This document shows positions 5,315-55,549 of a stretch of 64,000 nucleotides of DNA, one piece after another (the first letter of the stretch is position 1; each line of letters begins with the position of its first letter). The stretch comes from Mesorhizobium sp. Root554 (lineage in GTDB: Bacteria; Pseudomonadota; Alphaproteobacteria; Rhizobiales; Rhizobiaceae), in assembly GCF_001427025.1 (NCBI RefSeq), contig NZ_LMGA01000001.1, positions 1,773,884 to 1,837,883 of the forward strand. Direction: 5' to 3'. The notes beneath the pieces are model-generated. The model did no database searches. It was not told the DNA's origin and saw only the letters and a list, made by a program, of their open reading frames with translations. The translations under genes were made by a program, and so were the position numbers.

Positions 5315-5433
5315 TCCAACTCTCCCTGCGACAGCTCGACCAGCCGCTGTTGACCCTATTCTTCAGACAATTGCAAGGATCATGAAAAGGGACCGCGTCC
5401 GGGCGCCGCCCACCGTCGCGCCTTCGAAGCCGC

Positions 5434-5463
5434 AAAAAGAAAGGGGCGCCTGGGCGCCCCTTT
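5434..5463 (-). terminator. Rho-independent terminator after the sugar-importer operon
   Basis: A perfect 11-base stem (AAAGGGGCGCC at 5440-5450 with its complement at 5453-5463, tight 2-4 base loop) is followed on the minus strand by TCTTTTTG. It begins 22 bases after the stop of the binding-protein gene and would separate the importer transcript from dgoK-dgoA. Confidence 0.85.
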
Positions 5464-5484
5464 CCGTGTCGACTCAAAGCCGGA

Positions 5485-36311: not shown

Positions 36312-37001
36312 TTACACGGCGTGCAGCCAGCGCATGCGGGCAGTGAGATCGTCGGCGCCGAACGCCAGCGATCCCATCACGACCGTCTCCGCGCCGGCGG
36401 CGCGCAACAGCGGCACGGTGTTCTCGCGGATGCCGCCATCGGCGGCGAGGACGATGCGCCGCCCGCTTGCCGCGATCAGCGACGCAGCCTGGCGCAGCCG
36501 GTCGCCGGCTGTGGCATCGAGCCCCTGCCCTTTCACGCCAATGGCGGTGCCGAGCAGGGTCAGGAAATCGACCCGGTCGAGATAGGGCCGGCAAGCCGCG
36601 ACCTCCGTTTCGACGCGCAGCACGATTCCCGCCGCGACGTTGCGGCTTCGGATCAGCGCCAGCGCCTCGTCGGCAACGGCCGCGTTCTCGGCATGGATGC
36701 TGATGAGATCGGCGCCGGCATCGGCGAACTGCGCTGCCTGCTCGACCAGCACCGCATCGGCGACCATGAGATGGACGTGGATCGGCAGCGTGCTGGCGCT
36801 CCGCATCCGGGCGACGAGGTCCGGGAAGAACAGCAGCGCCGGGGCGAAATGTCCGTCCGCGACATCGACATGCAAGACGTCCGCATGACCTTCGATGCGG
36901 GCAAGGTCTTCGGCCAGGCGAAGGAGATCGGCCGACCACATCGAATATTCGGCAATCAGCCGGTTGCGTGGAAGCTCGGCGAGCCAGTTCGGGCTTGGCA
37001 T
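36312..37001 (-). CDS. Ribulose-phosphate 3-epimerase-family protein (possible ketohexose-6-phosphate epimerase)
   Basis: A 229-residue TIM barrel of the RPE/AlsE family. Expected metal ligands are kept: His44 and Asp46 (LHVDVADGHFAP), His77 (HVHLMV) and Asp188 (LAADGG). Family consensus residues around them vary (MDG becomes ADG, VDGG becomes ADGG), so it is not the housekeeping Rpe. An epimerase acting on allulose 6-phosphate or a similar ketose phosphate fits the neighbouring PfkB kinase and KbaZ-like genes. It follows the hydrolase gene by 2 bases. Confidence 0.82.
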   Translation of the reverse strand: MPSPNWLAELPRNRLIAEYSMWSADLLRLAEDLARIEGHADVLHVDVADGHFAPALLFFPDLVARMRSASTLPIHVHLMVADAVLVEQAAQFADAGADLISIHAENAAVADEALALIRSRNVAAGIVLRVETEVAACRPYLDRVDFLTLLGTAIGVKGQGLDATAGDRLRQAASLIAASGRRIVLAADGGIRENTVPLLRAAGAETVVMGSLAFGADDLTARMRWLHAV

Positions 37002-37003
37002 TT

Positions 37004-37816
37004 TCAGAATCCTTTCAGGAAGGCGCGCAGCGCCGCTTGGAAATCCGCCAGATAGGCGGATTTGTCCGCGCCCTTCGGCGTGATTTCCGTCAAAGTTGCG
37101 CCCGGGATCAGGCGCGCCAGCCGTTCGGCATGAACGAGCGGATGGATGAAATCCTGCCGGGTCGCCAGAATGGAGACAGGCATCTCAAGCCCGGCCAACT
37201 CAGCTTCGGAAACGCCCGGGCTGTCGGCCGAGATGGCGGTCAGCAATCCGGCCGTCACGGCAATCGGCTCGCGCTCGAAGAAACCGAGAAGGGACTTCAG
37301 ATTGTCCGGCGCTTCGCGGGCGAGCAGCGCGTGCGTTTGGCTCGCCAGGAATTCGGCGCGCGCTTCGGCCGGCGGCAGGCGCGACAGCAGCGCCCCGATC
37401 TCGGCATTGGGGCGGATGTTGTCGGGACCGGGAGCAGAAACCCACGCCGGCCGCGCGAGCACCAGCCCGCGCACGAGGTCCGGCCGGCGCACCGCGATGC
37501 GGCTCGAAATGGCCGCCCCCATCGAAATGCCGGCCAGCACCCCCGGAACGCCAAGATGTTCGATCAGGGCGACGACGTCGTCGGCAAACATCGGGATGGA
37601 AAAGGCGGAGCCGGCTTCGGATGCACCGTGCGCCCGGCACTCCAGTCCGATCAACCTGAACCTGCCGTCATCCGGAAAGGCTTCCGCCACCTGGCCGATA
37701 TCGCCGCACAGCCCGTGCTGGAACACCACGGGCAGGCCAGCGCCGCCGGAATCGTAGGCCGCCAGCGAAAGACCGTCTCGTTCCAAAAGACGACGTTTGA
37801 GATCGGCGAGGTTCAT
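37004..37816 (-). CDS. Alpha/beta hydrolase lacking an obvious catalytic histidine
   Basis: A 270-residue alpha/beta-hydrolase-fold protein. The start resembles PcaD-type lactonases (FQHGLCGDIGQVAEAF), the nucleophile elbow is AGISMGAA near residue 97 and the acid aspartate may be ATRQDFIHP. Where a GH motif is expected the sequence reads ITPKGADKSAYLADF, with no histidine, so activity is doubtful or uses another residue. It overlaps the isomerase gene by 4 bases. A sugar-lactone role is possible from context. Confidence 0.8.
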   Translation of the reverse strand: MNLADLKRRLLERDGLSLAAYDSGGAGLPVVFQHGLCGDIGQVAEAFPDDGRFRLIGLECRAHGASEAGSAFSIPMFADDVVALIEHLGVPGVLAGISMGAAISSRIAVRRPDLVRGLVLARPAWVSAPGPDNIRPNAEIGALLSRLPPAEARAEFLASQTHALLAREAPDNLKSLLGFFEREPIAVTAGLLTAISADSPGVSEAELAGLEMPVSILATRQDFIHPLVHAERLARLIPGATLTEITPKGADKSAYLADFQAALRAFLKGF

Positions 37817-38634
37817 TGCAGATGGCCGCGCAGGAAATCGGCGACGCCTTTCGCCTCGCCCGCCGCCAGCCCGTGGGCGACGAGATCGCCGTCGAAACCG
37901 GCACGCCGCAGGCAGGCGAGATAATGCGCATAATCCAGCACGCCCTTGCCCGCCGTCGCGAAGGAGCCGTCCGCCGCGCGGTCCTTGGCATGACCCATGG
38001 CGATGTCCGGTCCGAGAAGGTCTATCGCCTCGGCGACGATCCGGCGCTGGGTGGACGGGTCAACTTTCTCGAAAAGATTGGCCGGGTCGAGCACGATCGC
38101 CAGCCTGTCGCTGCCCATCTCGTCGAGCAGCCGCCGCGCCTTGGCGGCGGAATCGACGATGTTGGCCAGTTCCGGTTCGATGCCGAGGCGGATGCCATGG
38201 CGCATGGCAACCGCCACGGCCTTCTCCATTTCGGCGCGCATGTCGCGCCATGCCTCGGAAGAACCGTTGTCGGGATGATGCCGCCACTGATCGTCCCGAT
38301 CCCGCGTGCCGGTGCACAACGTGACAAGGCGGGTGCCAATGGTAGCGCAGGAGCCGGCGATCACCTCCAGCCGCTGCAAGCCGTCTGCACGAACCGCCGG
38401 GTCGGGATGCGCCATGTTGTAGGTGCCGGAAACCGCGCAGAGCGGTACGCCCTCGGATGTCGATGCCCGCGCAATCGCAGCGGCCGCCTCAGACGGGATG
38501 CTGTCCGGCATTGCCGGCAGGCCGGAACAGGCGAAATTGTACTGCGCGGTGTCGAACCCGGCTGCTGCGACTTCCGACAGGATGGAAGCGGGATCGGTTC
38601 CGGGAAAGGTCTTGGCGAAGATTCCAAGCCGCAT
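37813..38634 (-). CDS. Sugar phosphate isomerase/epimerase-like TIM-barrel protein
   Basis: A 273-residue AP_endonuc_2-type TIM barrel (xylose-isomerase-like). Features: IFAKTFPGTDPASILSEV at the start, GIRLGIEPELANIVDSA with a metal-binding glutamate near residue 155, AIVLDPANLFE near residue 185 and AMGHAKDRA near residue 220. ATG 38634 is preferred over GTG 38637 because GGGGAAG is five bases upstream. Such proteins isomerise or dehydrate sugars and inososes. It is translated right after the Gfo/Idh/MocA gene, a common pairing in inositol- and sugar-catabolic clusters. Confidence 0.85.
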   Translation of the reverse strand: MRLGIFAKTFPGTDPASILSEVAAAGFDTAQYNFACSGLPAMPDSIPSEAAAAIARASTSEGVPLCAVSGTYNMAHPDPAVRADGLQRLEVIAGSCATIGTRLVTLCTGTRDRDDQWRHHPDNGSSEAWRDMRAEMEKAVAVAMRHGIRLGIEPELANIVDSAAKARRLLDEMGSDRLAIVLDPANLFEKVDPSTQRRIVAEAIDLLGPDIAMGHAKDRAADGSFATAGKGVLDYAHYLACLRRAGFDGDLVAHGLAAGEAKGVADFLRGHLQ

Positions 38635-39710
38635 CACACTTCCCCGCAGACCTGATCGAGCCGGACCGGCTTGCCGGTCTCGGCCGAACGCGCGATCGCC
38701 ACCATCACCCGCACGCAGGCGATGCCGTCATCGATGTCCGCGCCGGTCATCGGGGCGCCGTCGAGGATGACCGAAGCAAAACCTTCGAGCTGGCGCCGGT
38801 AGAAATGACCGTCGGCGCCGAGCACGCGGCGCGACGCGCCTTCCGCCTCGTCGAAAATATCGACCTCGCTCGATTTGTAATACCAGGGATTATAGGTCTT
38901 GCCGACGACCGAGCCGTTGGCGCCGTAGATCTGGAAACCCTCGTGCCAGTCCATCCGCACCGCCACGGTGAGGTCGAGATGGCCGAGCACGCCATTGGCG
39001 AATTCCACGTCGACGAACCAGCAGCGCATGCCGCCGCGGTGGCTGAGCCGGGCGTCGACAGCGACGATGTCACCCGCGAAGAAGCGAGCTGTGTCGACCA
39101 GATGGCTGCCATGGGCGAGCATGTAATAGCGTTCGAGGTTGGCCTTCGGGTCTTCCGCCGGCTTCCGCGCGCGGGCGCTGGTCACCATCAGCGGCTGAAC
39201 AGCGTCGGTCATCGGGTAGCGGTGGGTGGAATCGCAATACCACGCTTTCAGCGCCACCATCTCGCCCATGCCGTCGTCGATGAAGGCGCGCGCCGCCTGC
39301 AGCCCGGCATCGAAGCGCTTCATGTGCCCGACCTGCAGGACCTTGCCGCTGGCGGCCACGGCGGCTTTCAGCTCGTCAACCGCCTCGACGCTGGTCGCCA
39401 CCGGCTTCTCGCACAGGACATGCTTGCCCGCCTCCAGCGCACGGATGGCGGCGGGAACATGGAAGGCGTCGGAGGTCGCGATGATCACCGCCTCAAGGTC
39501 CGGATCGGCCAGCATGGCGTCGTAGTCGGCAAAGGATTTTGCCGGCGCATGGGTCGCCGCCATCCGCTCGCGCAGATCGTCGGCCACGTCGCAGATTGCA
39601 TAGAGATCGGCATTCGCTGCCTTGTTGCAGCTTTCGAAATGCGCCGCCTGCGCGATCGGTCCGCATCCCAGCACGCCGACGCGCAGTCTCCGATCGGCTT
39701 TCTTCGGCAT
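38634..39710 (-). CDS. Gfo/Idh/MocA-family oxidoreductase
   Basis: A 358-residue NAD(P)-dependent sugar dehydrogenase. The Rossmann motif VGVLGCGPIAQAAHF is near the start and CEKPVATSVEAVDEL near residue 98 gives the catalytic lysine region. ATG 39710 has GGAG seven bases upstream; ATG 39716 is too close. It belongs to a leftward operon running from the PfkB kinase to the RPE-like epimerase and probably oxidises a sugar or cyclitol carbon. Confidence 0.88.
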   Translation of the reverse strand: MPKKADRRLRVGVLGCGPIAQAAHFESCNKAANADLYAICDVADDLRERMAATHAPAKSFADYDAMLADPDLEAVIIATSDAFHVPAAIRALEAGKHVLCEKPVATSVEAVDELKAAVAASGKVLQVGHMKRFDAGLQAARAFIDDGMGEMVALKAWYCDSTHRYPMTDAVQPLMVTSARARKPAEDPKANLERYYMLAHGSHLVDTARFFAGDIVAVDARLSHRGGMRCWFVDVEFANGVLGHLDLTVAVRMDWHEGFQIYGANGSVVGKTYNPWYYKSSEVDIFDEAEGASRRVLGADGHFYRRQLEGFASVILDGAPMTGADIDDGIACVRVMVAIARSAETGKPVRLDQVCGEV

Positions 39711-39759
39711 TCTCATACTCCTTCACCGGACGCCGCCGGCGATCAACGGTCGTTGGTGA

Positions 39760-41007
39760 CTACTCGCCCGCCGCCGCGCGATATTTCCGCACGACGTCGC
39801 CCACCATGCGGCGGACGATGCGGTCGGACAGGTCGGCGGAGGCAGGCACGGGATCGACCAGGCCTCCAACCGCCTGCGCGACAATTCCCGGTTCAGGCTT
39901 TGCCGCCCTGACATTGGCATAGAGGTTCGCCAGCGCCGCCTGCACCGCCGGTCGCGGCCAGTAATAGCGAACCCGGTCGGAGAGGCCGTAGAGCATCATC
40001 TCCCGCTCGCGCGGCCCGGGCGCAACATAGGCGCGCCAGTCGCCATGGTTCGCCCGCATCTCCGACAACAGCACATCAACGATGTTGGAAGGGTTGGCGA
40101 CATTCATCAGGGATTCGATCTCAGCCAGCGCCATGACCGCCTGCCGGAAGGCAAATGTCAGCTCAGGCCCGACCTTGAGGATGGCGAAATGGCCCTGAAC
40201 GAGATCGCTCAGCGCTTGCTGGCTCTGGTAGTCCGTGGAATGCGCCTCGAATACCATGCCGGGCAGCCGGGTCACGGCGGCGGAGAGGTCTGTGGCCTTC
40301 GATGCGTCGAAGGCAAAAACCGTATCGTTGCCGAAATCGACGCCGGGTTGCACGACGATGCCGATGACACGCGTCAGCGCGTCCGCCAGGCCACGCGCGA
40401 CGAAGGCGCGCTCGTGCAAGGCCCAGGTCTCGGCCACCGATGCCGGATCGGTCAGCGCCAGTGCGTCGAGCGCTTCCGTCTCGCCACCGGGGATCGGCAC
40501 TTCGGTTCCGATGACATAGACCAGATCGGCGCGGCCCCGGCTTTCGGCTACCGCGCAAAGCTCGGCGGCTCGTTCGGCGATTTGCCCTTCCGAGAGGTGG
40601 CCGTCATCGGCACAAGCCATCGAGGCATCGAGATGGATCTTGGTGAAACCGGCATCGACAAACGCCGCGACCAGGTCCCGCGCCTTGGCCATGGCGGCCT
40701 CGGCCGGTTCCGACTTCCACGGGTTGGGGCCGAGATGGTCGCCGCCGAGGATCAGCCGCGCCGGTTCGACGCCCTCGGCCTTGGCCAGGTCCTCGACGAA
40801 GGCGCGGAAACCGGCAGGGGTCATGCCGGTATAGCCGCCGAACTGGTTGACCTGGTTGCACGTCGCCTCGATCAGGATCGGCGCTGTGTCGTCCCGGTAT
40901 GCGGCGAGGATCGCCCGCAGCGTCTGCGGGTGCGCCGTGCAATAGGACGGGATGCCCTGCCCCTTGCCGGCTTGATTGGCCGCGACGATGTCAAGCAGCG
41001 CGCTCAT
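39760..41007 (-). CDS. KbaZ/GatZ-type protein (tagatose-bisphosphate aldolase non-catalytic subunit family)
   Basis: A 415-residue member of the AgaZ/GatZ/KbaZ family, with GIPSYCTAHPQTLRAIL, EATCNQVNQFGGYTGMTP, RLILGGDHLGPNPW and KIHLDASMACADD in family order. In E. coli such proteins support the catalytic subunit KbaY/GatY, and relatives are sugar-acid epimerases. No KbaY/GatY-like class II aldolase gene is in the window. The start at ATG 41007 overlaps the kinase gene by 4 bases; the frame continues upstream but only as an antisense shadow of the kinase. Confidence 0.88.
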   Translation of the reverse strand: MSALLDIVAANQAGKGQGIPSYCTAHPQTLRAILAAYRDDTAPILIEATCNQVNQFGGYTGMTPAGFRAFVEDLAKAEGVEPARLILGGDHLGPNPWKSEPAEAAMAKARDLVAAFVDAGFTKIHLDASMACADDGHLSEGQIAERAAELCAVAESRGRADLVYVIGTEVPIPGGETEALDALALTDPASVAETWALHERAFVARGLADALTRVIGIVVQPGVDFGNDTVFAFDASKATDLSAAVTRLPGMVFEAHSTDYQSQQALSDLVQGHFAILKVGPELTFAFRQAVMALAEIESLMNVANPSNIVDVLLSEMRANHGDWRAYVAPGPREREMMLYGLSDRVRYYWPRPAVQAALANLYANVRAAKPEPGIVAQAVGGLVDPVPASADLSDRIVRRMVGDVVRKYRAAAGE

Positions 41008-41969
41008 GCCTGTCGCTCCAGAAAAGCCTCTATGTCCGCCAGCGAGGAATTGCCTTCCATCGGCCCGACCTTGCCGACCGCCAGCGCCCCGGCGGCGTTG
41101 GCGAGGCGCATGGCCTCGCTGAAGGAAAAGCGGCCGGCCAGCGCGACGAAAGTGGCGCAGAAACAATCGCCGGCGCCGGTCGGGTCGATGACCTCGACCT
41201 TGTGCGCGTCGAAACTTTCGACCTGCCCGTCGGATGCCGCGCCGATGCAGCCCGCATCGCCGCGTTTGAGCACGACATAGCGCGCGCCGGCGCCGAGCAG
41301 ACGTTGCGCGAAAGCCTCGAACGGCTCGCCCGGAAACAACACCTCGGCATCCTCCGTGCTGGGGAGGATGAAGGAAGCGATATCGAGAAGCGCGCGCACC
41401 GTCTCCATGTAGGACGGGTCGGCGACGAGCTCCTTGCGGATGTTGGGGTCGAAGGAGATCGCCACGCTCTTTTCATGCAGCGCCCGGCAGACCTGCAGCG
41501 CCGCCGCCGCCATTTTCGGGTCGCCCAGCGTCGATCCCGAAATGTGAAAAGCGTCGAGGTCGAACCCCGCGAACTCTTCGATGGCGGCGTCGCCCACGGG
41601 AAGCTGAGCAGCCGCTGAATGGGCGATGTTGAAGACGAAATCGCGGCTGCCGTCGGAATTGTAGGAAACGAAGGCAGATCCGGTCGGGATGCCCGCCACG
41701 GTGCGCACCAGCGCATCGGAGACGCCGACCGCCGCGAAACGGTCGAGCAACACCTCGCCGAACGCGTCGCTGCCTACCGCGCCGGAGAAGATCGTGCTTG
41801 CGCCGACCCGCGCGGCCTGATCAATGAAGATGCCCGGCGCTCCGGAAGGATAAGGCCCGGCATAGGTCGAGGCGCGCCGGTTGCCGCCATCCTTGTCGGC
41901 GCAGATGAACTCGACCAGAAGTTCTCCCATCGAGCCGATCCGGCCGGCTTTTGGCTCCGCCGCGTTCAC
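41004..41969 (-). CDS. PfkB-family carbohydrate kinase
   Basis: A 321-residue ribokinase-type kinase. Substrate-side GSMGELLVEFI and PSGAPGIFIDQAARVGA lie near the start, and the anion-hole/catalytic-base motif IDPTGAGDCFCATFVALAG near residue 255. It phosphorylates a sugar, ketose or sugar acid. It is the first gene of the leftward operon facing the LacI gene, and is coupled to the KbaZ-like gene by a 4-base overlap, which hints at a tagatose- or sorbose-like intermediate. Confidence 0.9.
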   Translation of the reverse strand: MNAAEPKAGRIGSMGELLVEFICADKDGGNRRASTYAGPYPSGAPGIFIDQAARVGASTIFSGAVGSDAFGEVLLDRFAAVGVSDALVRTVAGIPTGSAFVSYNSDGSRDFVFNIAHSAAAQLPVGDAAIEEFAGFDLDAFHISGSTLGDPKMAAAALQVCRALHEKSVAISFDPNIRKELVADPSYMETVRALLDIASFILPSTEDAEVLFPGEPFEAFAQRLLGAGARYVVLKRGDAGCIGAASDGQVESFDAHKVEVIDPTGAGDCFCATFVALAGRFSFSEAMRLANAAGALAVGKVGPMEGNSSLADIEAFLERQA

Positions 41970-43220: not shown

Positions 43221-43967
43221 TCAACCGCCGACCATGAGCTTGACCACTTCGTCATGGGTCGTTTCGGAAATCTTGCGCTCGCCGGCGGTGACGCCCCGGC
43301 GCAGCACGATGATGCGGTCGGACACGGCAAAAATGTCCTGCAGATTGTGCGAGATGAAAATGACGCCTCGCCCCTGCGCCTTGAGCTGGTGGATCAGCGA
43401 GATGACCTTGCGCTGCTCGGGCACGCCGAGCGCCGCCGTAGGCTCATCCATGATGAGGATTTGCGCGTTCCAGTAGACGGCCCGGCCGATGGCCACCGCC
43501 TGCCGCTGGCCGCCGGAGAAGTTGGACACCGGCGCTTCCATGCGCGAGACATGGAAATCCAGCATCGCCATGGTCTGCCGCGCCGCCTGGGCCATCTTCT
43601 TGCGGTCGAGCACCGGCAGGAAGCCGAACGCCCGCCGCATCGGCTCCCGGCCAAGGAAGATGTTGCCGCCGATGGTCAGATTGTCGGCCAGCGCGAGATC
43701 CTGGTAGATCGTCTCGATGCCCTTGTCGCGGGCTTCCTGCGGCGTGCCGAAACTGACCGGTTCACCCTTCAGCTTCACTTCGCCGGAGGTCGGGCGGAAC
43801 ACGCCGGAGATAGCCTTGATCAGCGTCGTCTTGCCGGCTCCGTTGTCGCCGGCAAGCGCCACGACCTCGCCGGGGCGCACCACCAGCGACACGTCGCTGA
43901 GCGCACGGACGGCGCCGAAATATTTGGAAAGATTGCTGACTTCCAGAAGCGGGGCGGTATCATTCAT
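43221..43967 (-). CDS. Sugar ABC transporter ATP-binding protein (single domain)
   Basis: A 248-residue ATPase of the ribose/fructose-import type with one nucleotide-binding domain: Walker A GDNGAGKTT, signature NFSGGQRQAVAIG, Walker B ILIMDEPTAALG and H-loop FISHNLQ. GGAGG lies eight bases before ATG 43967, which decides the start over a GTG at 43982. It overlaps the permease gene by 8 bases and is the last gene of the importer operon. A single-domain ATPase, like FrcA, presumably works as a homodimer. Confidence 0.92.
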   Translation of the reverse strand: MNDTAPLLEVSNLSKYFGAVRALSDVSLVVRPGEVVALAGDNGAGKTTLIKAISGVFRPTSGEVKLKGEPVSFGTPQEARDKGIETIYQDLALADNLTIGGNIFLGREPMRRAFGFLPVLDRKKMAQAARQTMAMLDFHVSRMEAPVSNFSGGQRQAVAIGRAVYWNAQILIMDEPTAALGVPEQRKVISLIHQLKAQGRGVIFISHNLQDIFAVSDRIIVLRRGVTAGERKISETTHDEVVKLMVGG

Positions 43968-45039
43968 CCTGGCGGCCTCCACTGAACCGGCGCTGTGCCT
44001 GATCGATCAGCACCGAAATGATGATGACGACGCCGACGCTGATGAACTGCCAGAACGGCTCCACATTGACGAACACCAGCCCGTACTGGATCACCGCGAT
44101 GACGAACGCGCCGGCGACGGTGCCGATGATGGTGCCGGAGCCGCCGAACAGGCTGGCGCCGCCGATCACCACCGCCGCCACGCAGTCGAGCAGCAGCGGC
44201 TCGCCGGCCTGGGCAGCGCCGGCATTGAAGCGCGCCGAATAGAGCACGCCGGCCAGGCCCGCGCAGCAGGCTGAGAGAATGTAGAGGCGCAGCAGATGCG
44301 ACCTGATGTCGATGCCGGCGCGCCGCGCCGCCTGGACATTGGCGCCGATGGCGTAATTGTGCTGGCCGAAACGCGTCTGGCTGAGCAGGTAGTGCATGGC
44401 CAGCACGAAGATGGCGGCAATGATGACGATGTACGGCACGTTCATGATGCGGCCGTTGCCGATGGTGGCGAAGAAGGAGTTGTTGACCGGAACCGTGGTG
44501 CCGCCGGCGAGCAGGAAGGCGACGCCGCGCGCCACGCCGAACATGCCGAGCGTGCCGATGAACGGCGGAACCCGCAGGCGCGATACCAGCAGGCCGTTGA
44601 TGATGCCGGGAACGGCGGCCACCAGCACGGCAATCAGGAAGCCCAGCAGCACCGCCATCGGCATGCCGAGGCCGGGCGTGAAGGCGTTGATGGCATGGGC
44701 CGCGACGACCGCAGCCAGCCCCATGATGAAGCCCAGCGACAAATCGATGCCGCCGGAGATGATGACGAAGGTCTGCCCGGTGGCAAGCAGCAGCGGCGCC
44801 ACGGCGAAGATCGTGATCGATTGCAGGTTGAACGGATTGAGGATGAACGTGCCGCCGAAGCTGATCCGCGCCCAGGCCTCGAAGCCGAGGATCAGCGCCA
44901 GCAGGAACAGCCAGGCCCGCAGGTCGGCTATGCGTTGAACCAGTGTCTTGGCGCGATCGGCATGATCCGCCTGTGGCCGGCCATTGGTGTCGGCGCTCGC
45001 TGCGCCGGCCGCCGGGCCATGGCTATCGGAAGTTGTCAT
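43960..45039 (-). CDS. Sugar ABC transporter permease (RbsC/FrcC type)
   Basis: A 359-residue BPD_transp_2 permease with an extra hydrophilic N-terminus (about 35 residues). Family features: FVIISGGIDLSLGFIMGLAA near residue 110, FGQHNYAIGANVQAARRAGI near residue 235 and VVIGGASLFGGSGTIIGT near residue 290. Translated from ATG 45039, 100 bases after the binding-protein stop; that gap holds two hairpins. It forms the membrane channel of the importer. Confidence 0.92.
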   Translation of the reverse strand: MTTSDSHGPAAGAASADTNGRPQADHADRAKTLVQRIADLRAWLFLLALILGFEAWARISFGGTFILNPFNLQSITIFAVAPLLLATGQTFVIISGGIDLSLGFIMGLAAVVAAHAINAFTPGLGMPMAVLLGFLIAVLVAAVPGIINGLLVSRLRVPPFIGTLGMFGVARGVAFLLAGGTTVPVNNSFFATIGNGRIMNVPYIVIIAAIFVLAMHYLLSQTRFGQHNYAIGANVQAARRAGIDIRSHLLRLYILSACCAGLAGVLYSARFNAGAAQAGEPLLLDCVAAVVIGGASLFGGSGTIIGTVAGAFVIAVIQYGLVFVNVEPFWQFISVGVVIIISVLIDQAQRRFSGGRQDE

Positions 45040-45139: not shown

Positions 45140-46132
45140 TTATTCCGAATAGATGTATTTCGCGACGTTCGGGTCCGCGACATTGGTCTTGTCGATGACC
45201 GTGAAGCCGGTGCCGATCGAAACCGGGATCGACTGGCCGGTCAGGTGCGCAAAGGCCGAAACCACGCCGTAATAGCCGATTTCCGCCGGATGCTGGGCGA
45301 TGGCCACATCGACCAGGCCGGACTTGATGTTGTCGACGATCGAGCCCGGCGCATCGAACGCAACGACCTTGATGTTGCCCGTCTGGCCGGCCTGCTGCAC
45401 GCCGTTGCCGGCGCCGAGCGCCGAGAACAGATTGGCGCCGAACACGCCCTTCAGGTCGGAATTGCGTGCGAACACCGCCTGAAGCTGGCTCGCCGCCTTG
45501 TTGGCGTCGTTTTCGTTGAACTGGGTTTCGAGCACGGCGACCTTCGGGAAGGCCTCTTTCATCTCGGCCTTGAAGCCTTCCTCGCGCTGGTCTGTGGTGG
45601 AAATGCCCGGCTTGACGTTGGACACATAGACCTTGCCTTCACCGCCCATCGCATTGGCGAGCGCGCGGGCCGCCATGCGGCCGCCAAGCACGTTGTCCGA
45701 AGCGATATAGGAAAGCGGGAAGTCGGCATCACCGGCGCCGGTCTGGTATTTGCCGGTGCCGATGAAGGTATCGACGGTGATCACCGGAATGCCGGCGTCG
45801 TTGGCCTTGCGCAGCGGCTGGACCAGCTGGGTCGTGTCGGTCGGCGCGATCAGGATAGCGGAAGGCTTGCGCGCGATGATCGCGTCCAGCACCGGCACCT
45901 GGACGACGGGGTTGAACTCCGGCCCGCCCTGGAAGACCAGTTCGACGCCGAGAGCATCGGCCGCGGCCTGGGCGCCCTTGCGCATGGTGATGTAGAAGGC
46001 ATCGGTGGTGAGGCCCGGAATCAGCGCGATGGAATATTTCTTCTCCTGCGCGAAAGCCGTGCTGGCCGGTATCCCGACCGCTGCGACGGCAGCCATTGCC
46101 ATCGCGGATTTGAGAACTGAACGACGCTCCAT
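45140..46132 (-). CDS. Sugar ABC transporter, periplasmic substrate-binding protein
   Basis: A 330-residue RbsB/Peripla_BP_4 protein. The signal peptide (LKSAMAMAAVAAVGIPASTAFA) ends near residue 27 and the mature part begins EKKYSIALIPGLTTDAFYITM. GGGAGGAG lies five bases before ATG 46132, which excludes the longer frame start at 46180. First gene of the leftward importer operon (binding protein, permease, ATPase). Cargo unknown; neighbours point to a sugar that is phosphorylated and cleaved by the aldolase at 47478. Confidence 0.92.
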   Translation of the reverse strand: MERRSVLKSAMAMAAVAAVGIPASTAFAQEKKYSIALIPGLTTDAFYITMRKGAQAAADALGVELVFQGGPEFNPVVQVPVLDAIIARKPSAILIAPTDTTQLVQPLRKANDAGIPVITVDTFIGTGKYQTGAGDADFPLSYIASDNVLGGRMAARALANAMGGEGKVYVSNVKPGISTTDQREEGFKAEMKEAFPKVAVLETQFNENDANKAASQLQAVFARNSDLKGVFGANLFSALGAGNGVQQAGQTGNIKVVAFDAPGSIVDNIKSGLVDVAIAQHPAEIGYYGVVSAFAHLTGQSIPVSIGTGFTVIDKTNVADPNVAKYIYSE

Positions 46133-46444
46133 GGAACTCCTCCCTTTCGTGAGTTTTGTGCCGACCGGCGGTCGGCCCATTTATCGAACCTGGCGATTGG
46201 CCAAGGTCCTCCCGGCCACTAATTTCGTCTGAAACGATTCCTCATCATGCGTGTCCGCGAGTCCGAGGTGGATGCGCGGGGTTGTGGACGATGATTGTCG
46301 TTTTCCTCTTCCCGCACCCTCCGGCGCGGACGTCTCAGCATCCTCCGCTCGACGTCTTCGAATTAAGACGCAGACCCGCCATCCCTGTCAATAGATTAGT
46401 GCGAGCAAATAACAAAATTTCCGCGCCGAAAAATTGATGAACTG
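46133..46444. other. 312-base noncoding region upstream of the sugar importer
   Basis: No convincing gene is seen. It holds the importer promoter region and several dyads: CCGACC-GGC-GGTCGG (46161-46175), CGTCTT-CGAATT-AAGACG (46353-46370) and an AT-rich stretch AAATAACAAAATTTC (46407-46421) just after the SorC-family stop. The last resembles, on the other strand, a sequence in front of the aldolase gene. Confidence 0.6.
46353..46370. promoter_or_regulatory. Palindrome in the importer upstream region
   Basis: CGTCTT-CGAATT-AAGACG has perfect 6-base arms, and the centre contains TTCGAA. It is a candidate operator for the importer operon, about 220 bases before the binding-protein start. Confidence 0.4.
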
Positions 46445-47335
46445 TCATGCGGGCAGCTCCAGCAGGATTTCCGCCGTGCGCGCGTCGGTGACGAGCGCCG
46501 AGATCAAACCGGCCTTTGCGGCGCCGCGGATCGCCCGCGCCTTCGCCTCTCCCACCGCCACGCCGATCACCAGCGACGCGCGACGCAACTGCTCCACCGA
46601 CATGGCGATCATGCTTTTCGCATCTTCGGGATCGAGCAATGCGCCCTCCGCATCGAAATAGTGGCGCATGACGTCGCCCGCGGCGTCGGGATGATGTTCC
46701 GTACCGGCGTCGGCGGTCTCATGGGGAAGGCCTATGCCGACGATCGCGGCCTCGACCCGGTCCCAGAGCGCTACATGGTCGGCCACGACGGGATCGGCCA
46801 GAAAAGCCTGGCGTGATGCCGGCGACGGCAGATACGGGGCATGGACGAAACGCGGCGAGCCGCCGAACTGCAGTGCCGCCAGCCGCACGAATTCATTGAT
46901 CTGGAAATGCGGCTGGTGCTGTTGCATACCGCCCGTCGCCGGAACGGTCAGCACGCCGGAGATTTCCGGCAGCCCCGCTTCGATAACGGCCCGCACGGCG
47001 CGCCCCCAGCCGATCGCCACCACCGACCCTTCGGACAATCCGGCCTTTTGCAGAAGACTGCCTACGGGCGGCCCGAGGAAAGCCAGAGCGCCCACGCCGG
47101 TGGCTTCCACGACCGCAGCGCTCTTCAGGGAAAGCCTCTCCGCCAGCGCCGCCGCCAGTTCCTCCGGCGCCGCCAGATCCCGCACCTCGATGCGGACAAT
47201 GCCTTCGGCGCGCGCCCGCTGCAGCAGCCGCGAGATGGTCGCCGTCGACAGGCCAACCTGCCGGGCGACATCGACCTGGCTCATGTCGTTCTCGTAGTGC
47301 AGCTTCGCGACCGTATGCAGAAGAGCACGCGACAC
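46445..47335 (-). CDS. SorC/DeoR-family sugar-binding transcriptional regulator
   Basis: A 296-residue SorC-type regulator. N-terminal helix-turn-helix MSQVDVARQVGLSTATISRL near residue 20, then a sugar-binding domain of the SorC/DeoR effector-domain family with VVAIGWGRAVRAVIEAG near residue 110 and VVGDVMRHYFDAEG-like phosphate-sugar loop (AAGDVMRHYFDAEG). The start codon is GTG 47335. It is divergent from the aldolase gene and precedes the sugar importer on the same strand. It probably responds to a phosphorylated sugar made by the nearby kinases. Confidence 0.87.
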   Translation of the reverse strand: MSRALLHTVAKLHYENDMSQVDVARQVGLSTATISRLLQRARAEGIVRIEVRDLAAPEELAAALAERLSLKSAAVVEATGVGALAFLGPPVGSLLQKAGLSEGSVVAIGWGRAVRAVIEAGLPEISGVLTVPATGGMQQHQPHFQINEFVRLAALQFGGSPRFVHAPYLPSPASRQAFLADPVVADHVALWDRVEAAIVGIGLPHETADAGTEHHPDAAGDVMRHYFDAEGALLDPEDAKSMIAMSVEQLRRASLVIGVAVGEAKARAIRGAAKAGLISALVTDARTAEILLELPA

Positions 47336-47477: not shown

Positions 47478-48389
47478 ATGGCACGCATGACCACAGCCGA
47501 ACGCCGCGGCTATCAGCAGATTTGCGGCGACAACGGCGCCATGATGGTGATCGCCTGCGACCAGCGCGGCGGTATGCGCACGCTGCTGGCCGCCGATCCG
47601 GCTGAACAGGCCAGGATCGGCAACGATGTTCTGGGGCTTACCAAGGCCGACATCGCAAAATACCTCGCCCGCCACGCTTCCTGCGTGCTGGTCGATCCGG
47701 TCTGCGCCGTTCCGCAGCTGGTGGATGACGGCACGCTCGACCGCGGCACCGCGCTTCTGATCGGGCTGGACGCTTCCGGGTGGGACACGTCCCCCGAAGG
47801 CTACCGCATTTCCAAGCTGGTCGAAGGCATCGGCGCGCGGCAGGTGCGCGCCTTTGGCGGCAATGGCGGCAAGATCATGGTCTACCTTCGCTCCGACACG
47901 CCGGCTGCGAATGACCGGAACATCGCGACGCTGAAAAAGGTCATCGACGATTTCGCCCGGGAAGATCTGCTGCTGGTGGTCGAATTCCTCACCTACCGGC
48001 TGGAGAACGAAAGCCCGGAGGCCTACCAGGCCAAGATACCGGAACTGATCCAGGGCGGAACGCAGATCTGCCTGGATGTCGGTTCGAAAGTGCTGAAGCT
48101 GCCTTATCCCGGCTCGGCCGAGTCCTGTGCGGCGGTCACCAAACTCGCCGGGGACGTTCCCTGGGCTGTGCTGTCGGCCGGCGTCGATCATGAAACCTTC
48201 CTTGGACAGGTCGAGACCGCTATGGCCAATGGCGCGTCAGGCGTCATCGCCGGCCGCTCCCTGTGGAAGGACTGCATCTCCCTCGACCGCGACGTGACGC
48301 GCCAGCGCCTCGAGACGATCGCCGTTCCGAGGCTGCGCGAAATACAGGCGATCATCGCCCGGCACTGGGCACCGGCGAAAGCCGCCTGA
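47478..48389 (+). CDS. Class I aldolase of the LacD/YihT (tagatose-1,6-bisphosphate aldolase) family
   Basis: A 303-residue DeoC/LacD-family TIM barrel. The start MMVIACDQRGGMRTLLAAD is diagnostic, LVVEFLTYRL near residue 160 and DVGSKVLKLPYP near residue 200 include the likely Schiff-base lysine, and WAVLSAGVDHETFL and GASGVIAGRSLWKD close the phosphate site. Members cleave tagatose 1,6-bisphosphate or 6-deoxy-6-sulfofructose 1-phosphate. AGGAGA precedes the ATG. It is followed by a ROK kinase fusion, and the pair looks like a kinase-aldolase unit. Confidence 0.85.
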   Translation: MARMTTAERRGYQQICGDNGAMMVIACDQRGGMRTLLAADPAEQARIGNDVLGLTKADIAKYLARHASCVLVDPVCAVPQLVDDGTLDRGTALLIGLDASGWDTSPEGYRISKLVEGIGARQVRAFGGNGGKIMVYLRSDTPAANDRNIATLKKVIDDFAREDLLLVVEFLTYRLENESPEAYQAKIPELIQGGTQICLDVGSKVLKLPYPGSAESCAAVTKLAGDVPWAVLSAGVDHETFLGQVETAMANGASGVIAGRSLWKDCISLDRDVTRQRLETIAVPRLREIQAIIARHWAPAKAA

Positions 48390-48404
48390 TTGAAGCCGCT
48401 CGAC

Positions 48405-49829
48405 ATGATCCGCACCACCGTCGGCGTCGACATCGGCGGCACTAATATACGCGCCGCGCGCGTAGGAGCCGATGGTAAAATCCTTGCTCGGGCACGCGCC
48501 GCCAGTTCGACCGACCCGACGGTGGTCATCGAACGGGTCGAGGCGCTTGTTGCCGGGATCGATGACGAAACGGTGCAAGGCATCGGCATTGGCGTGCCGG
48601 GTCAGGTGCATTTCGCCAGCGGACGCGTCCTCTCGGGCGGGTATGTCGACTTATCCGCGGTTCCCGTGCGCGAACGGCTCGAAGCGCGCTTCGGTCGCAA
48701 CGTCGTCATCGACAATGACGGCAACATGGCGCTGGTGGCCGAAGCGCGATGCGGAGCCGCGGTCGGCCGTTCTCATGCCGCGATGCTGACCATCGGCACC
48801 GGCATCGGCGGCGCGATCCTTGTGGACGGGAGCATCTTCCGGGGCGCCGGCGCCGCTGGACAACTCGGCCACATCGTCGTCGATCCTCAGGGTCTGCCCT
48901 GCAAATGCGGCCGCAATGGCTGCGTCGAAACCATGAGTTCGGGCACGGCGCTCGGCCGGCATATCGCGGAGGCCGGTCTTCCGGCAGCGACCACGGCGGC
49001 CAGCCTGCTGGAACGGCGCGCTTCCGGCGACGCGCTGGCGGACAAGGTGCTGCGTTCATGGGCGCAGCCGCTGCGTGCCGCAATCGACAGTCTTGCCGCG
49101 ACGCTTCATCCACAGACGATCGTCCTCGGCGGCGGGCTGGGCAGCGAGGCCGTCGCCGCGCTGTCGCCCTATCCGGACAAGTCGTCCTGGTTCAGCTACG
49201 AACTCGTCGCGGCCAGTCTCGGCGACGATGCCGGCGTCATTGGCGCCGCCCTGACGGCCCTGCCCTCCAGGCGGGCAGGAAAACGCCTCGTCATGGTCAA
49301 TGGCGTCCCGGCCAGCGGCAAGAGCAGCGTTGCCGCCGGCTTGGCCAAGGCAACAGGCTGGCCGGTGCTGTCGCTCGATACGATCAAGAACCCGTTCCTT
49401 GAAGAGATCGAAACCGTCGATCGACCGTTCAACCGCAAGCTCGGCCGCGCCAGCCTCAAGGCGATGTTCGCGGTGCTGGGCGAGGCGCCTGACGGAGCCA
49501 CATTCATCATGGATGCATGGTTCGGCTTCCAGCCGCGCGAATTCGTACAGGACCTGATTGACGCCGCCGGCATCGACACGATCGCCGAAATCTGGTGCTC
49601 GGCGCCGCCGGAGCTCATCGGCGACCGTTACAGCACCCGGACGGCCAGCCGGCTACCGGGGCACCCCGGCCCCGAATACGTCCCGGAACTCGTCGCGCTC
49701 GCATCCCGCGCCGAGCCTTCCCGCTTCGGTCCCGTTCACGAGGTCGACACGACGGCTGCCTTGGATACGATCACTATCCGCAAGTTTCTCGAACAGGTTT
49801 TCGACGGCCCGCGAGCTTGCGGCCCTTGA
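48405..49829 (+). CDS. ROK-family sugar kinase fused to a P-loop kinase domain
   Basis: A 474-residue two-domain protein. Residues 1-290 are a ROK kinase: phosphate loop VDIGGTN (9-14), catalytic Asp105 (IDNDGN), LTIGTGIGGAIL, and the zinc motif with His156, Cys166, Cys168 and Cys173. Residues 295-474 are a separate P-loop kinase: Walker A GVPASGKSS (300-308), LSLDTIK (Asp325) and a lid-like RTASRLPGHPGPE, resembling zeta-toxin/AAA_33 small-molecule kinases. ATG 48405 is chosen; a TTG at 48390 touches the aldolase stop. It is co-transcribed with the aldolase. The fusion is unusual; a double phosphorylation feeding the aldolase is a hypothesis. Confidence 0.85.
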   Translation: MIRTTVGVDIGGTNIRAARVGADGKILARARAASSTDPTVVIERVEALVAGIDDETVQGIGIGVPGQVHFASGRVLSGGYVDLSAVPVRERLEARFGRNVVIDNDGNMALVAEARCGAAVGRSHAAMLTIGTGIGGAILVDGSIFRGAGAAGQLGHIVVDPQGLPCKCGRNGCVETMSSGTALGRHIAEAGLPAATTAASLLERRASGDALADKVLRSWAQPLRAAIDSLAATLHPQTIVLGGGLGSEAVAALSPYPDKSSWFSYELVAASLGDDAGVIGAALTALPSRRAGKRLVMVNGVPASGKSSVAAGLAKATGWPVLSLDTIKNPFLEEIETVDRPFNRKLGRASLKAMFAVLGEAPDGATFIMDAWFGFQPREFVQDLIDAAGIDTIAEIWCSAPPELIGDRYSTRTASRLPGHPGPEYVPELVALASRAEPSRFGPVHEVDTTAALDTITIRKFLEQVFDGPRACGP

Positions 49830-50163: not shown

Positions 50164-51288
50164 TTGGGCGCGCATCACGGCCAGATTCTGCGCATCCTGC
50201 GCGATGAAGGCCCGCAATCGCGGGCGGCGCTGGCGCGGCGCTCCAAACTGTCCGCAACCACCCTCACCCATGTCACGGCGCATCTCCTGCGCGACGGGTC
50301 TGTCCTCGAGAGCGAGACGAGCGGCTCGATCGGCGTCGGCCGGCCGGCGCAGGCCGTGCGCCTGGTGCCCGACGCGCACAGCGTCGCCGGCGTGCATATC
50401 GGCGCCGGCCATGTCCAGGTCGCGATTACCGACCTGAAGGCGGCCCCCAAAGCGACCGCATCCTTCGAGTTCGATGTCCACGGGGCCGATCCTGACCGCG
50501 TGGTCAGCGACGTCGCGGCCATGGTCATGAAACTGGCAGCCGAGGTGCAGATCGACACCGGCAAATTGCTCGGCATCGGCGTCGGCGTGCCAGGCCCGGT
50601 GGATTTCGAGCGGCGCACCGCGCTGGCCTCGATCAATGTCGGCTGGCGCAATGTCCCCATTGCCGGCAAGCTGGAGCGCGCCATCCGCCTGCCGACCGTG
50701 GTCGAACACAACGTGACGGCAATGGCGTTGGCCGAAAGCTGCTACGGCATCGGCAGGCAAGTGCCGGCGCTGCTGTTTGTCTATCTGAAGACCGGCCTTG
50801 GCGCTGGGCTGGTGGTGGACGGCGTGCCGTTCCGTCCCGGCGGCCACGGCGCCGTCGAACTTGGCCATATCCAGATTACGCCTGACGGTGCGCGCTGCGC
50901 CTGCGGCAACCGCGGTTGCCTGGAAACATTCCTTTGCGAAAAAGCGCTCATGGCGGCGGCGGGCGTTATAGGTTCCGCGCCTGCCGATCTCATGGCGAGG
51001 GTCGAGCAGAACGGTCCGGCCTGGGATACCGTCATCGAGCATCTCACCACCGCCCTCGCCAGCGCGGTCAATCTCTTGACGCCCGATCTCATCGTCTTCG
51101 GCGGCTATCTCGGCCAGGCACCGGAAAGCCTGTTCGAGCGCCTTCGCGCCGACGTGCCGCCGCGTGTCATGCCGCATATGCGCGAAATCCTGAAATTCGA
51201 ACGCACCAGCTTCGGCGCGCAGAGCGGCGCTATCGGCGGCGCTGCCGTGGCGCTGGATCATTTCTTCTATTCGGGGGCACTGCATTGA
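50164..51288 (+). CDS. ROK-family transcriptional regulator
   Basis: A 374-residue NagC/XylR-type ROK repressor: N-terminal winged helix ([20 protein letters not shown], then [14 protein letters not shown]), then a ROK domain with [20 protein letters not shown] and the zinc motif [10 protein letters not shown] near residue 245. The kinase phosphate loop is degenerate, as expected for a sugar sensor. Start TTG 50164 is supported by AGGGAG six bases upstream. Its stop overlaps the permease start (TTGA), so it leads the importer-sulfatase operon and probably represses it until the sugar ligand is present. Confidence 0.9.
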
Positions 51289-52085
51289 GCACCGCTGCGA
51301 CGCCGCCCGAGACCGAATTGCGGGAACGGCCATCCAACCGGCTGCTGCCGCTGGCGTTGAACATCTTCGCCTTCGCTGTCGGCATCGCCGTCTGGTGGGC
51401 CATCACCGCCACCGGCGCGGTCGTCCTGCCGGGGCCGCAGGAGGTGTTCTGGAAAGCCCTCGAGCTGATCCGGAGCGGTCAGCTCTTCATCGACATCTTT
51501 GCCAGCCTGCGCCGCGTGCTGACCGGCTTTGTGCTGGGCGCCGCGCTGGCGATACCGGTCGGCTTCCTGATGGGCTGGTACAAGGTCGCCCGCGCGCTGA
51601 TCGAACCCTATGTGCAGTTCTTCCGCATGATCCCGCCGCTGGCGGTGATCCCGCTCGCCATCGTCACCATGGGCATCGACGAAGCGCCGAAGATCTTCGT
51701 CATTTTCCTCGCCTCGTTCCTGTCCTGCGTCGTCGCCACCTATCAGGGCGTCATCAGCGTCGACCGAACCCTGATCAACGCCGCCCGGGTTCTCGGCGCG
51801 AAGGATTCGACCATCTTCCCGCGCGTCATCATCCCGGCCTCGATCCCCTTCATTCTGGTCGGCGTACGCATCGGCCTTGGCTCCGCCTGGGCGACGGTCG
51901 TCGCCGCCGAACTGATCGCGGCGCAATCCGGCCTCGGTTTCCGCATGCAGCAGGCGCAGCTCTACTACGACCTGCCCATCATCTTCGTCAGCCTCATCAC
52001 CATCGGCATCCTCGGTCTCCTCATGGATCGCCTGTTGCAGGCGACCGAACGCCGCCTCACCCAATGGCAGGAACGCGCGCAATGA
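51285..52085 (+). CDS. Nitrate/sulfonate/taurine-type ABC transporter permease
   Basis: A 266-residue SsuC/TauC-type permease with about six membrane segments. Coupling motif [20 protein letters not shown] near residue 160 and [17 protein letters not shown] near residue 195 are typical. The start is TTG 51285, overlapping the ROK stop; longer in-frame starts would lie inside the ROK gene in a wrong frame. It overlaps the ATPase gene by 4 bases. The family imports sulfonates, taurine, nitrate and thiamine precursors. Here a sulfate ester is plausible because a sulfatase follows. Confidence 0.9.
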
Positions 52086-52876
52086 CGGCCGGGACGCAAC
52101 CGAAAATCTCGTTCCAGAACGTCACCCGCCGCTTCGGCGAGGGCGACAAGTCGTTTCTGGCGCTGGACCGGCTCAACCTCGACATCGCCGACGGCGAATT
52201 CGTCACCGTCGTGGGCCCTTCCGGCTGCGGCAAGTCGACGGCAATGAACATCGCCGCCGGCCTGACCGACGCATCCGACGGCAAGGTGCTGGTCGATGGC
52301 AGATCCGTTTCCGGTCCCGGACCGGAGCGCGGCGTGATCTTCCAGCAATATGCGCTGTTTCCCTGGCTGACGGTGCGCCAGAACGTCGAGTTCGGCCTGC
52401 GCATCAAAGGCATGCCGAGGGCCGAGCGTCGCCGCGTCTCCGACCATTTCATCGATCTCGTCGGCTTGAAGGATTTCGCCGACGCGCTGCCCAAGACGCT
52501 ATCCGGCGGCATGAAGCAGCGCTGCGCCATCGCCCGCGCCTATGCCGTCAACCCGACCATGCTTTTGATGGACGAGCCGTTCGGCGCGCTCGACGCGCTC
52601 ACCCGCGTCAACATGCAGGACCAGCTTCTGGACACATGGAGCCGCGAGCGCCGCACCGTCATCTTCATCACCCACGATGTCGACGAGGCGGTCTACCTCG
52701 CCAACCGGGTCATCGTCATGGCCGCGCGTCCCGGACGCCTGCACAAGATCATCCCGGTCGACCTGCCCTATCCGCGCACCGAGGAAATGCGGCTGTCGCC
52801 CGAGTTCGCGGCGATCCGCAATCAGGTCTGGCACGCCGTCTATCACCAGAAACCACAAGTCGAAGCAAAACACTGA
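52082..52876 (+). CDS. Nitrate/sulfonate/taurine-type ABC transporter ATP-binding protein
   Basis: A 264-residue SsuB/TauB-type ATPase: Walker [11 protein letters not shown]-loop [12 protein letters not shown], signature [14 protein letters not shown], Walker [13 protein letters not shown] and H-loop [10 protein letters not shown]. It overlaps the permease gene by 4 bases and is followed 18 bases later by the binding-protein gene. Confidence 0.93.
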
Positions 52877-52894
52877 CAGGGAGGAATTTTTGAG

Positions 52895-53881: not shown

Positions 53882-53982
53882 TGCCCGATGACGCAAAGAC
53901 CGCGTCGGCCCATGCGGCCGGCGCGGCTCTCCGGATTTGAAAAGCGCGCCCCCCATGCCGCGTCGATGGACCAGAATTGCAC

Positions 53983-55542
<1,560 letters not shown>

Positions 55543-55549
55543 GGCGCGC

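Follow-up and report, generated by a model that had tools for sequence, protein, structure and literature searches.

A ROK kinase fused to a P-loop kinase beside a LacD-type aldolase in Mesorhizobium sp. Root554, with a putative role in rare-ketose breakdown

The fused kinase and the adjacent aldolase

A stretch of 64,000 nucleotides from Mesorhizobium sp. Root554 (contig NZ_LMGA01000001.1, positions 1,773,884 to 1,837,883; hereafter the window) was analysed around a gene in which a ROK sugar kinase is joined to a second, P-loop kinase, and which follows a gene for a LacD/YihT-type aldolase. On balance, we favour the reading that it encodes a bifunctional kinase serving a module for the breakdown of a rare ketose, in which the ROK domain would add a first phosphate, the P-loop domain would add a second and the aldolase would cleave the resulting ketose bisphosphate. 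The features of the two genes are given below in window coordinates, and residues, including those reported as conserved among homologues, are numbered as in the window protein. Conservation was scored over 65 aligned ROK rows (64 distinct sequences, fused and split forms) and 112 P-loop rows (110 distinct, as L133 repeats L040 and L239 repeats L143; L and G numbers are our handles for loci and genomes).

48405..49829, + strand: predicted ROK/P-loop bifunctional kinase, 474 amino acids from ATG
48405..49259, + strand: ROK sugar-kinase domain, residues 1-285 (Pfam PF00480, residues 5-284, E = 5.4e-54)
48429..48443, + strand: DIGGT nucleotide loop, residues 9-13 (D9, G11, G12 and T13 invariant in the 65 ROK rows)
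48717..48719, + strand: Asp105, presumed catalytic (invariant in the 65 ROK rows)
48861..48863, + strand: Gln153, replacing the usual Glu of E-x-G-H (Q in 65/65 ROK rows)
48900..48923, + strand: presumed zinc motif CKCGRNGC, residues 166-173 (C166, C168 and C173 invariant)
49281..49805, + strand: P-loop kinase domain, residues 293-467 (Pfam AAA_33 at residues 295-416)
49302..49328, + strand: Walker A GVPASGKSS, residues 300-308 (G300, P302, G305 and K306 invariant in the 112 rows)
49377..49388, + strand: DTIK motif, Asp325/Lys328 (both invariant in the 112 rows)
47478..48389, + strand: LacD/YihT-type class I aldolase (Pfam DeoC/LacD, PF01791, E = 1.8e-15)

The aldolase gene ends 15 bp upstream of the kinase gene on the same strand, and its profile match agrees with the assignment made in an earlier note on this DNA. 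The same note had placed the DIGGT loop, Asp105, the zinc motif and GVPASGKSS in one 474-residue chain, and all were found where it had located them. An alternative TTG start upstream, at 48390, would give 479 amino acids. In the chain, a short linker connects the ROK kinase to an adenylate-kinase-like P-loop domain. When the window protein was aligned with 31 fused homologues (50-74% identity to it), the active-site residues of both domains were invariant: D9, G11-T13, N104, D105, H156, C166, C168, C173 and E175 in the ROK half, and N299, G300, P302, G305, K306, D325, K328, R340, R344, R408, R412, R416 and H420 in the P-loop half. Judged from this alignment, both active sites look intact and conserved. 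Moreover, the existence of 32 distinct fused proteins, the window protein included, rules out a frameshift or assembly artefact as the origin of the fusion. A whole-chain AlphaFold2 model, built from an alignment of 27 fused sequences, gave a mean predicted local distance difference test score (pLDDT) of 91.1 and a predicted template modelling score (pTM) of 0.67, and predicts two confident domains whose mutual placement is unsure. About 7 residues link the last ROK helix to the first P-loop strand in this model; the L062 protein is 44 residues longer, with the extra length chiefly in the linker. Foldseek with the full chain listed 50 matches, all of ROK type, and the P-loop domain was therefore modelled alone.

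The first domain has the ROK fold (best Foldseek match 3vgk, a ROK glucokinase, E = 1.3e-25), DxGGT, the catalytic Asp and the glycine-rich loop, and shares its fold, catalytic Asp and zinc motif with the ROK hexokinases GlcA/GlkA, NanK and AlsK. Residues D9, G11-T13, D105, G131-G136, H156, C166, C168, C173 and E175 never vary over the 65 rows. We take Asp105 to be catalytic, as in the ROK family, and H156 with the three cysteines presumably forms the zinc site of one His and three Cys. However, in place of the Glu usual in those hexokinases the window protein has Gln153; of five solved ROK chains shown aligned, four have Glu at this position and 2aa4 has His. Since Gln153 is invariant where solved ROKs mostly have Glu, this group has a variant sugar site of its own. 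What the earlier note called a complete ROK active site is thus complete in its catalytic and zinc residues, and departs from the usual form in its sugar site. All 13 listed NCBIfam models of named ROK specificity (glucokinase, NanK, AlsK, fructokinase) score below cut-off, the best at 153 of 260 bits. A second ROK protein, from an optional gene cluster (L028, 23327-24319), reads GHIGH, with His at the Gln153 position.

The second domain matches AAA_33 above cut-off (31.9 bits against 27, E = 1.9e-7), and N299, G300, P302, G305, K306, D325, K328, R344, R408, R412, R416 and H420 never vary over the 112 rows. Modelled alone, it gave a P-loop kinase fold with a mean pLDDT of 92.8 and a pTM of 0.88. 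Together, the profile match, the fold and the invariant catalytic residues bear out the separate Walker A kinase domain of the earlier note, which had also suggested predicting its structure. The closest solved relative of the model is 2rhm (Caur_3907; Z 20.8, root mean square deviation 2.6 over 180 residues), which is also the best match by sequence (25% identity, E = 1.4e-9) and shares the stretches D..K, DR...R..G and R-x-PGH. Unlike the window domain, 2rhm is a stand-alone solved chain of 193 residues, and it is named only 'putative kinase'. Behind it come O-phosphoseryl-tRNA kinase (Z 15.2), adenylate kinases (Z about 14 to 14.7) and gluconokinase 3t61 (Z 13.8, tied with many other kinases), and the Foldseek matches include the sugar kinase 4eun and PFKFB3 (6-phosphofructo-2-kinase, E about 5e-6). 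The free-standing P-loop relative in L127 had no NCBIfam match. Over residues 295-329 alone, the start of the domain also has a weak Pfam match to isopentenyl transferase (20.4 bits against a cut-off of 20), which was put down to the common Walker A and rejected.

The aldolase matches the family profile and, aligned to 3kao and 7ag7, shows the catalytic Lys/Glu/Lys set; none of Lys132, Glu169 and Lys207 varies over 90 rows. Lys207 is the residue that we take to be the Schiff-base lysine. Lys132 and Glu169 align, via 3kao, with Lys126 and Glu164, given in PMC9007349 as the catalytic residues of LacD. The nearest solved relative by sequence is YihT (1e-19), followed by a DUF2090 protein and by tagatose bisphosphate aldolases of LacD type. 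Because no NCBIfam model reaches its cut-off (LacD 55 of 432 bits, the PRK12858 subfamily 152 of 184 bits), the aldolase forms a branch of its own. The distal phosphate pocket was considered as a discriminator between mono- and bisphosphate substrates and dropped as uninformative: DQRG is common to LacD and the window aldolase family and YihT has DQRE, and, for the class II aldolase found in some related operons, the position of the KbaY Arg is Asn here and Gln or another residue in other solved enzymes. The phosphate-site roles of the DQRG/DQRE motif and of the class II Arg position are presumed.

Distribution and gene arrangements

The P-loop domain was found in 24 of 297 genomes of the window's family. 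A separate search recovered the aldolase, at 64-100% identity, in exactly the same 24 genomes, the next copies being at 31-32%; the chance of such an overlap is about 1e-35 assuming independent genomes, which they are not. Eighteen of the carriers (window included) have the fused form and six the split form. The domain was also present in 33/397 genomes of an order sample and 11/398 of a phylum sample, which overlap. The named carriers include members of Aureimonas, Rhizobium, Agrobacterium, Mesorhizobium and Rhodobacterales, among them the symbiont Rhizobium tropici CIAT 899. Some matches run over one stop codon (e.g. G267, G127, G381, G340, G1048); in the translated frames, a set outside which G1048 falls, the frame is open through the domain and the stop lies at its end. 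Twenty four plasmid records cover most of the query, and five of these were examined.

At 63 distinct alphaproteobacterial loci (a set that leaves aside, among the 33 carriers of the order sample, the wider loci of G580, G608 and G674 and the second match in G570), the aldolase stands beside the P-loop domain in every case. Within 9 kb, a SorC-type regulator was found at 53 of these loci and all three genes of an ATP-binding cassette (ABC) importer at 51, some loci being cut by contig ends. Over all rows, the P-loop domain and an aldolase of either class occur together in 111 of 112. The sole exception is a 34% P-loop relative from Cryobacterium (L144), which lies outside any sugar operon, next to a gene for an aminoglycoside adenylyltransferase and a few kb from a recombinase gene; it was kept as 'other' in the conservation counts and in the tree. 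Two phosphoryl-donor genes, assigned by homology only (ROK and P-loop, or phosphotransferase system (PTS) and P-loop), lie near the aldolase in the 111 aldolase-linked rows. The fusion to which the earlier note drew attention is a recurrent one with the aldolase as its constant partner, and the P-loop kinase and the aldolase form the constant core of the module. In public records the fusion is named 'ROK family protein', the P-loop kinase 'AAA family ATPase' or 'ATPase AAA' and the aldolase 'tagatose-bisphosphate aldolase'.

At 32 loci two genes, ROK first and P-loop second as in the fusion, encode the kinases separately, and the P-loop match sets in -7 to 34 bases past the ROK stop codon. Seen beside the fused loci, these constitute a Rosetta-stone pattern. 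A midpoint-rooted tree of the P-loop domain, built from 110 rows, contains a single very long branch. In it the split forms group into one clade (100/93) within the fused ones, and all format labels need only 3 changes, against a shuffled mean of 51.5. For the alphaproteobacteria, the simplest history suggested by this tree, whose root is uncertain, is that an older fusion was split.

A third arrangement was found in a family that is probably of enterobacterial type, judging from Klebsiella and Sodalis records with the same operons. Here the P-loop kinase is present in 43/246 genomes. A LacD-type aldolase with at least 61% identity over nearly its full length was found in 24/246, all of them among the 43 carriers, and the remaining 19 carriers have a class II aldolase in the operon. 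In G1125 the aldolase match spans residues 1-72 only, at 57% and with an internal stop, and no P-loop match was found. EIIA, EIIB and EIIC of the ascorbate-like GAT group are encoded in all 46 PTS-type rows, with no ROK gene in the operon; L232 has a ROK gene about 6 kb off on the other strand. Of these rows 45 are distinct, and the set includes a Klebsiella record, a Sodalis record and a row from a different family. The PTS type was assigned by Pfam and NCBIfam on L126, L127 and L131. Three layouts occur.

Layout 1 (13 rows): SorC, LacD, P-loop, EIIA, EIIB, EIIC
Layout 2 (21 rows): PfkA-like, EIIB, EIIC, class II aldolase, small protein, EIIA, P-loop
Layout 3 (12 rows): PfkA-like, EIIB, EIIC, small protein, EIIA, P-loop, LacD

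In 12 of the 13 rows of layout 1 the PTS and the P-loop kinase are the only local phosphoryl donors found before an aldolase. Searches by tblastn with the reference proteins in hand found no PfkA, PfkB or ROK homologue near the operon in these 12 rows, and in L126 Pfam found no sugar kinase among the 10 of 13 further called genes scanned, one being without a match. In L127 the class II aldolase scores 261 bits with TIGR00167, the model for ketose-bisphosphate aldolases, whose cut-off is 215.6. The PfkA-like proteins keep IDND in 34/34 rows (the distant copy in L212 included), as well as R159, R248 and R257, and those of L127 and L131 have LGG where the E. coli enzyme has MGR; we presume the functional roles of these motifs from PfkA. 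With IDND kept, and with LGG for MGR in L127 and L131, the L127 protein (4700-5680) and its homologues form a PfkA-like branch that perhaps has another substrate than phosphofructokinase. A small conserved protein lies just before EIIA in the 33 PfkA-containing rows (layouts 2 and 3); the L127 copy (8237-8533, 98 amino acids) has no Pfam match above cut-off. The L127 operon was not found by megablast in the E. coli collection.

Neighbouring genes in the window

Upstream of the aldolase, the following genes were found on the opposite strand.

46445..47335, - strand: SorC/DeoR-type regulator with sugar-binding domain, divergent (Pfam Sugar-bind, 1.2e-43)
45140..46180, - strand: RbsB-type sugar-binding protein of an ABC importer (Peripla_BP_4, 6.7e-57)
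43960..45039, - strand: sugar ABC permease (BPD_transp_2, 6.2e-39)
43221..43982, - strand: sugar ABC ATPase, single-domain (ABC_tran, 2.3e-33)
41004..41969, - strand: optional PfkB kinase, tagatose-kinase-like (NCBIfam 273 of 420 bits, below cut-off)
39760..41013, - strand: optional GatZ/KbaZ-like protein, ketose-6-phosphate 4-epimerase type (PF08013, 9.9e-146)
36312..39716, - strand: optional Gfo/Idh dehydrogenase, AP_endonuc_2 isomerase/epimerase, alpha/beta hydrolase and ribulose-phosphate-3-epimerase-like (Rpe-like) protein

Ketose-6-phosphate 4-epimerase activity is ascribed to GatZ/KbaZ in PMC11907403. PfkB and GatZ occur together within 9 kb at 11 of the 63 alphaproteobacterial loci, and at 9 loci the kinase has all four Gfo/Idh-set genes within that distance. 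These counts are underestimates, the window's own sets lying mostly or wholly beyond 9 kb. In several loci the Gfo/Idh, AP_endonuc_2, alpha/beta hydrolase and Rpe-like genes recur as a compact group near the module, with place and strand differing from locus to locus. The optional neighbours would fit ketohexose phosphates, though a minority of loci carry them within 9 kb. An Lsr-like (autoinducer-2, AI-2) system, suggested by the SorC regulator and an LsrB-like transporter score, was rejected with the Lsr models far below cut-off.

A PdxJ-like gene was seen near the SorC regulator or the ABC genes in 4/63 loci (L028, 12173-12919; L032, 8780-9529; L035; L062). The L028 copy passes the NCBIfam pyridoxine 5'-phosphate synthase cut-offs, and some of the four loci also have a HAD phosphatase. 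In Agrobacterium rubi (L032, 13455-14549) a YvcK-family gene directly follows the kinase. On the + strand next to the window's kinase gene, positions 50164-56485 hold a ROK-type repressor and an SGSH-type sulfatase (53977-55542) by Pfam and, by eye only, a taurine/sulfonate-like ABC importer between the two and a gene resembling formylglycine-generating enzymes (55550-56485). This neighbouring region looks like a sulfate-ester scavenging operon.

Proposed pathway, alternatives and significance

In the pathway that we propose, the RbsB-type ABC importer would bring a free monosaccharide into the cell and the ROK domain would phosphorylate it. As in ROK hexokinases, the phosphate would probably go to the terminal hydroxyl, the one distant from the carbonyl. 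In enterobacterial-type operons the PTS would add this first phosphate in place of ROK. The P-loop domain would phosphorylate the other end of the resulting ketose phosphate, and the LacD-type aldolase would split the ketose 1,omega-bisphosphate, yielding dihydroxyacetone phosphate together with an aldose phosphate. Regulators of the SorC family commonly sense phosphorylated intermediates, and the SorC-type regulator here may do likewise. Genomic context supports the first step well: since a phosphorylating PTS takes the place of ROK in other bacteria, ROK is the most likely source of the first phosphate. A second phosphate from the P-loop domain is favoured because no other sugar-kinase homologue was found nearby in 12 of the 13 rows of layout 1 and because the L127 class II aldolase passes TIGR00167. 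P-loop kinases acting on a ketose phosphate do exist, for example 6-phosphofructo-2-kinase. The earlier note's idea that one protein adds both phosphates is supported in part, by the intact sites, the recurrent fusion, the constant aldolase and the exchange of ROK for PTS. That the P-loop domain gives the second phosphate is what we infer, as are which phosphate comes first and where each is placed, the nature of the sugar and the sensing of the effector.

Several observations weigh against this pathway. The strongest is the PfkA-like gene in 33/46 PTS rows (34 counting the distant one in L212), because such an enzyme, if active on the ketose phosphate, would make the P-loop kinase redundant for bisphosphate formation; the P-loop kinase may do something else where this gene is present. 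Further optional kinases also occur at the 63 alphaproteobacterial loci (PfkB in 18, a second ROK in 8), and the fused kinase falls under the cut-off of every NCBIfam model scored. In the modelled structure, the nearest fold to the P-loop domain is that of a protein without an assigned function, followed by those of tRNA kinase, adenylate kinase and gluconokinase. Finally, the nearest solved aldolase, YihT, cleaves a monophosphate, its substrate being given in PMC12890257 as a ketose monophosphate with a distal sulfonate.

This last point leads to the alternative that survives best, which we nevertheless hold to be rather unlikely. The aldolase would cleave a ketose 1-phosphate supplied by ROK or the PTS and the P-loop domain would phosphorylate the released aldehyde in the manner of a triokinase, so that both halves enter glycolysis. 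A monophosphate enzyme as nearest solved aldolase (PMC12890257) is consistent with this, a P-loop kinase working downstream of the aldolase would still be needed alongside the PfkA-like gene of those 33 rows, and a kinase-aldolase fusion for a monophosphate substrate exists in IolC-DUF2090 (PMC9007349). However, L127 has a class II aldolase instead of LacD, and this enzyme scores above the cut-off of a ketose-bisphosphate model, and the PfkA-like genes, if active on ketose phosphate, themselves point to a bisphosphate. A gluconokinase-like action of the P-loop domain on some other intermediate (a sugar acid, or a second sugar from the Gfo/Idh, isomerase and epimerase genes), with ROK and aldolase as the main route, seems improbable: gluconokinase 3t61 and sugar kinase 4eun are among its structural relatives and further kinases coexist in many loci, but the optional genes are as inconstant as the 9/63 for the Gfo/Idh set, against 111/112 rows for the P-loop domain and aldolase. 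A role for the P-loop domain away from the sugar, whether in regulation, in scaffolding or as a nucleotide kinase, is very improbable, and the sensor role offered as an alternative in the earlier note was set aside with it: adenylate, APS (adenylyl sulfate) and tRNA kinases are structural neighbours, but Lys306, Asp325, Lys328 and Arg 344, 408, 412 and 416 are invariant over the 112 rows, free-standing proteins included, and the link to the aldolase persists without ROK.

The proposed two-phosphate pathway resembles known systems in part. In the LacC-LacD tagatose 6-phosphate pathway the ketose 6-phosphate comes from a PTS or kinase and is converted by a second kinase into the 1,6-bisphosphate, which the class I aldolase LacD cleaves. 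In contrast to that pathway, the second kinase here is of P-loop type rather than the PfkB-type LacC, the first is a ROK fused to the second, and the aldolase scores far below the LacD cut-off. PFKFB3 is likewise a P-loop kinase acting on a ketose phosphate; however, it is human and distant (13-15% identity), and it makes a regulator, not an aldolase substrate. The YihV-YihT route of sulfoglycolysis (the sulfo-Embden-Meyerhof-Parnas pathway, sulfo-EMP) contains the closest solved aldolase, YihT (7ag7, 1to3), but uses one kinase and one phosphate only, and is not known to involve a P-loop kinase. There too, class I and class II aldolases carry out the same step in different bacteria, according to PMC12890257. 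A precedent for fusion is IolC-DUF2090 of myo-inositol breakdown, where a sugar kinase is covalently joined to its pathway partner, a LacD-related aldolase (PMC9007349); that fusion is of kinase and aldolase, whereas the window protein joins kinase and kinase. No description of the ROK/P-loop fusion or its operon was found in searches of the open-licence literature, which omits most subscription papers and so gives weak evidence of novelty. The parts are of known kinds; their combination, and the place of the P-loop family in a sugar pathway, are apparently undescribed.

Tentatively, and with less confidence than in the pathway itself, we suggest that a single polypeptide performs the whole energy investment of a rare-sugar glycolysis, equivalent to hexokinase plus phosphofructokinase, and that the P-loop family is a ketose-phosphate kinase that can serve pathways fed by ROK or by a PTS and with an aldolase of class I or of class II, marking an uncharacterised sugar of rhizobium-type and enterobacterial Proteobacteria. 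This offers a testable function for a P-loop family and a fusion that now carry only general ATPase and ROK labels. The module occurs in three natural formats (fused, split and PTS-fed), and the same P-loop domain should accept the ROK product in one and the PTS product in another, so that the shared sugar phosphate could be deduced. These formats also bear on why enzymes of successive steps fuse and then separate again. Taken together, these data point to a so far unassigned route of sugar use in rhizobia, Aureimonas, Rhodobacterales and enterobacteria.

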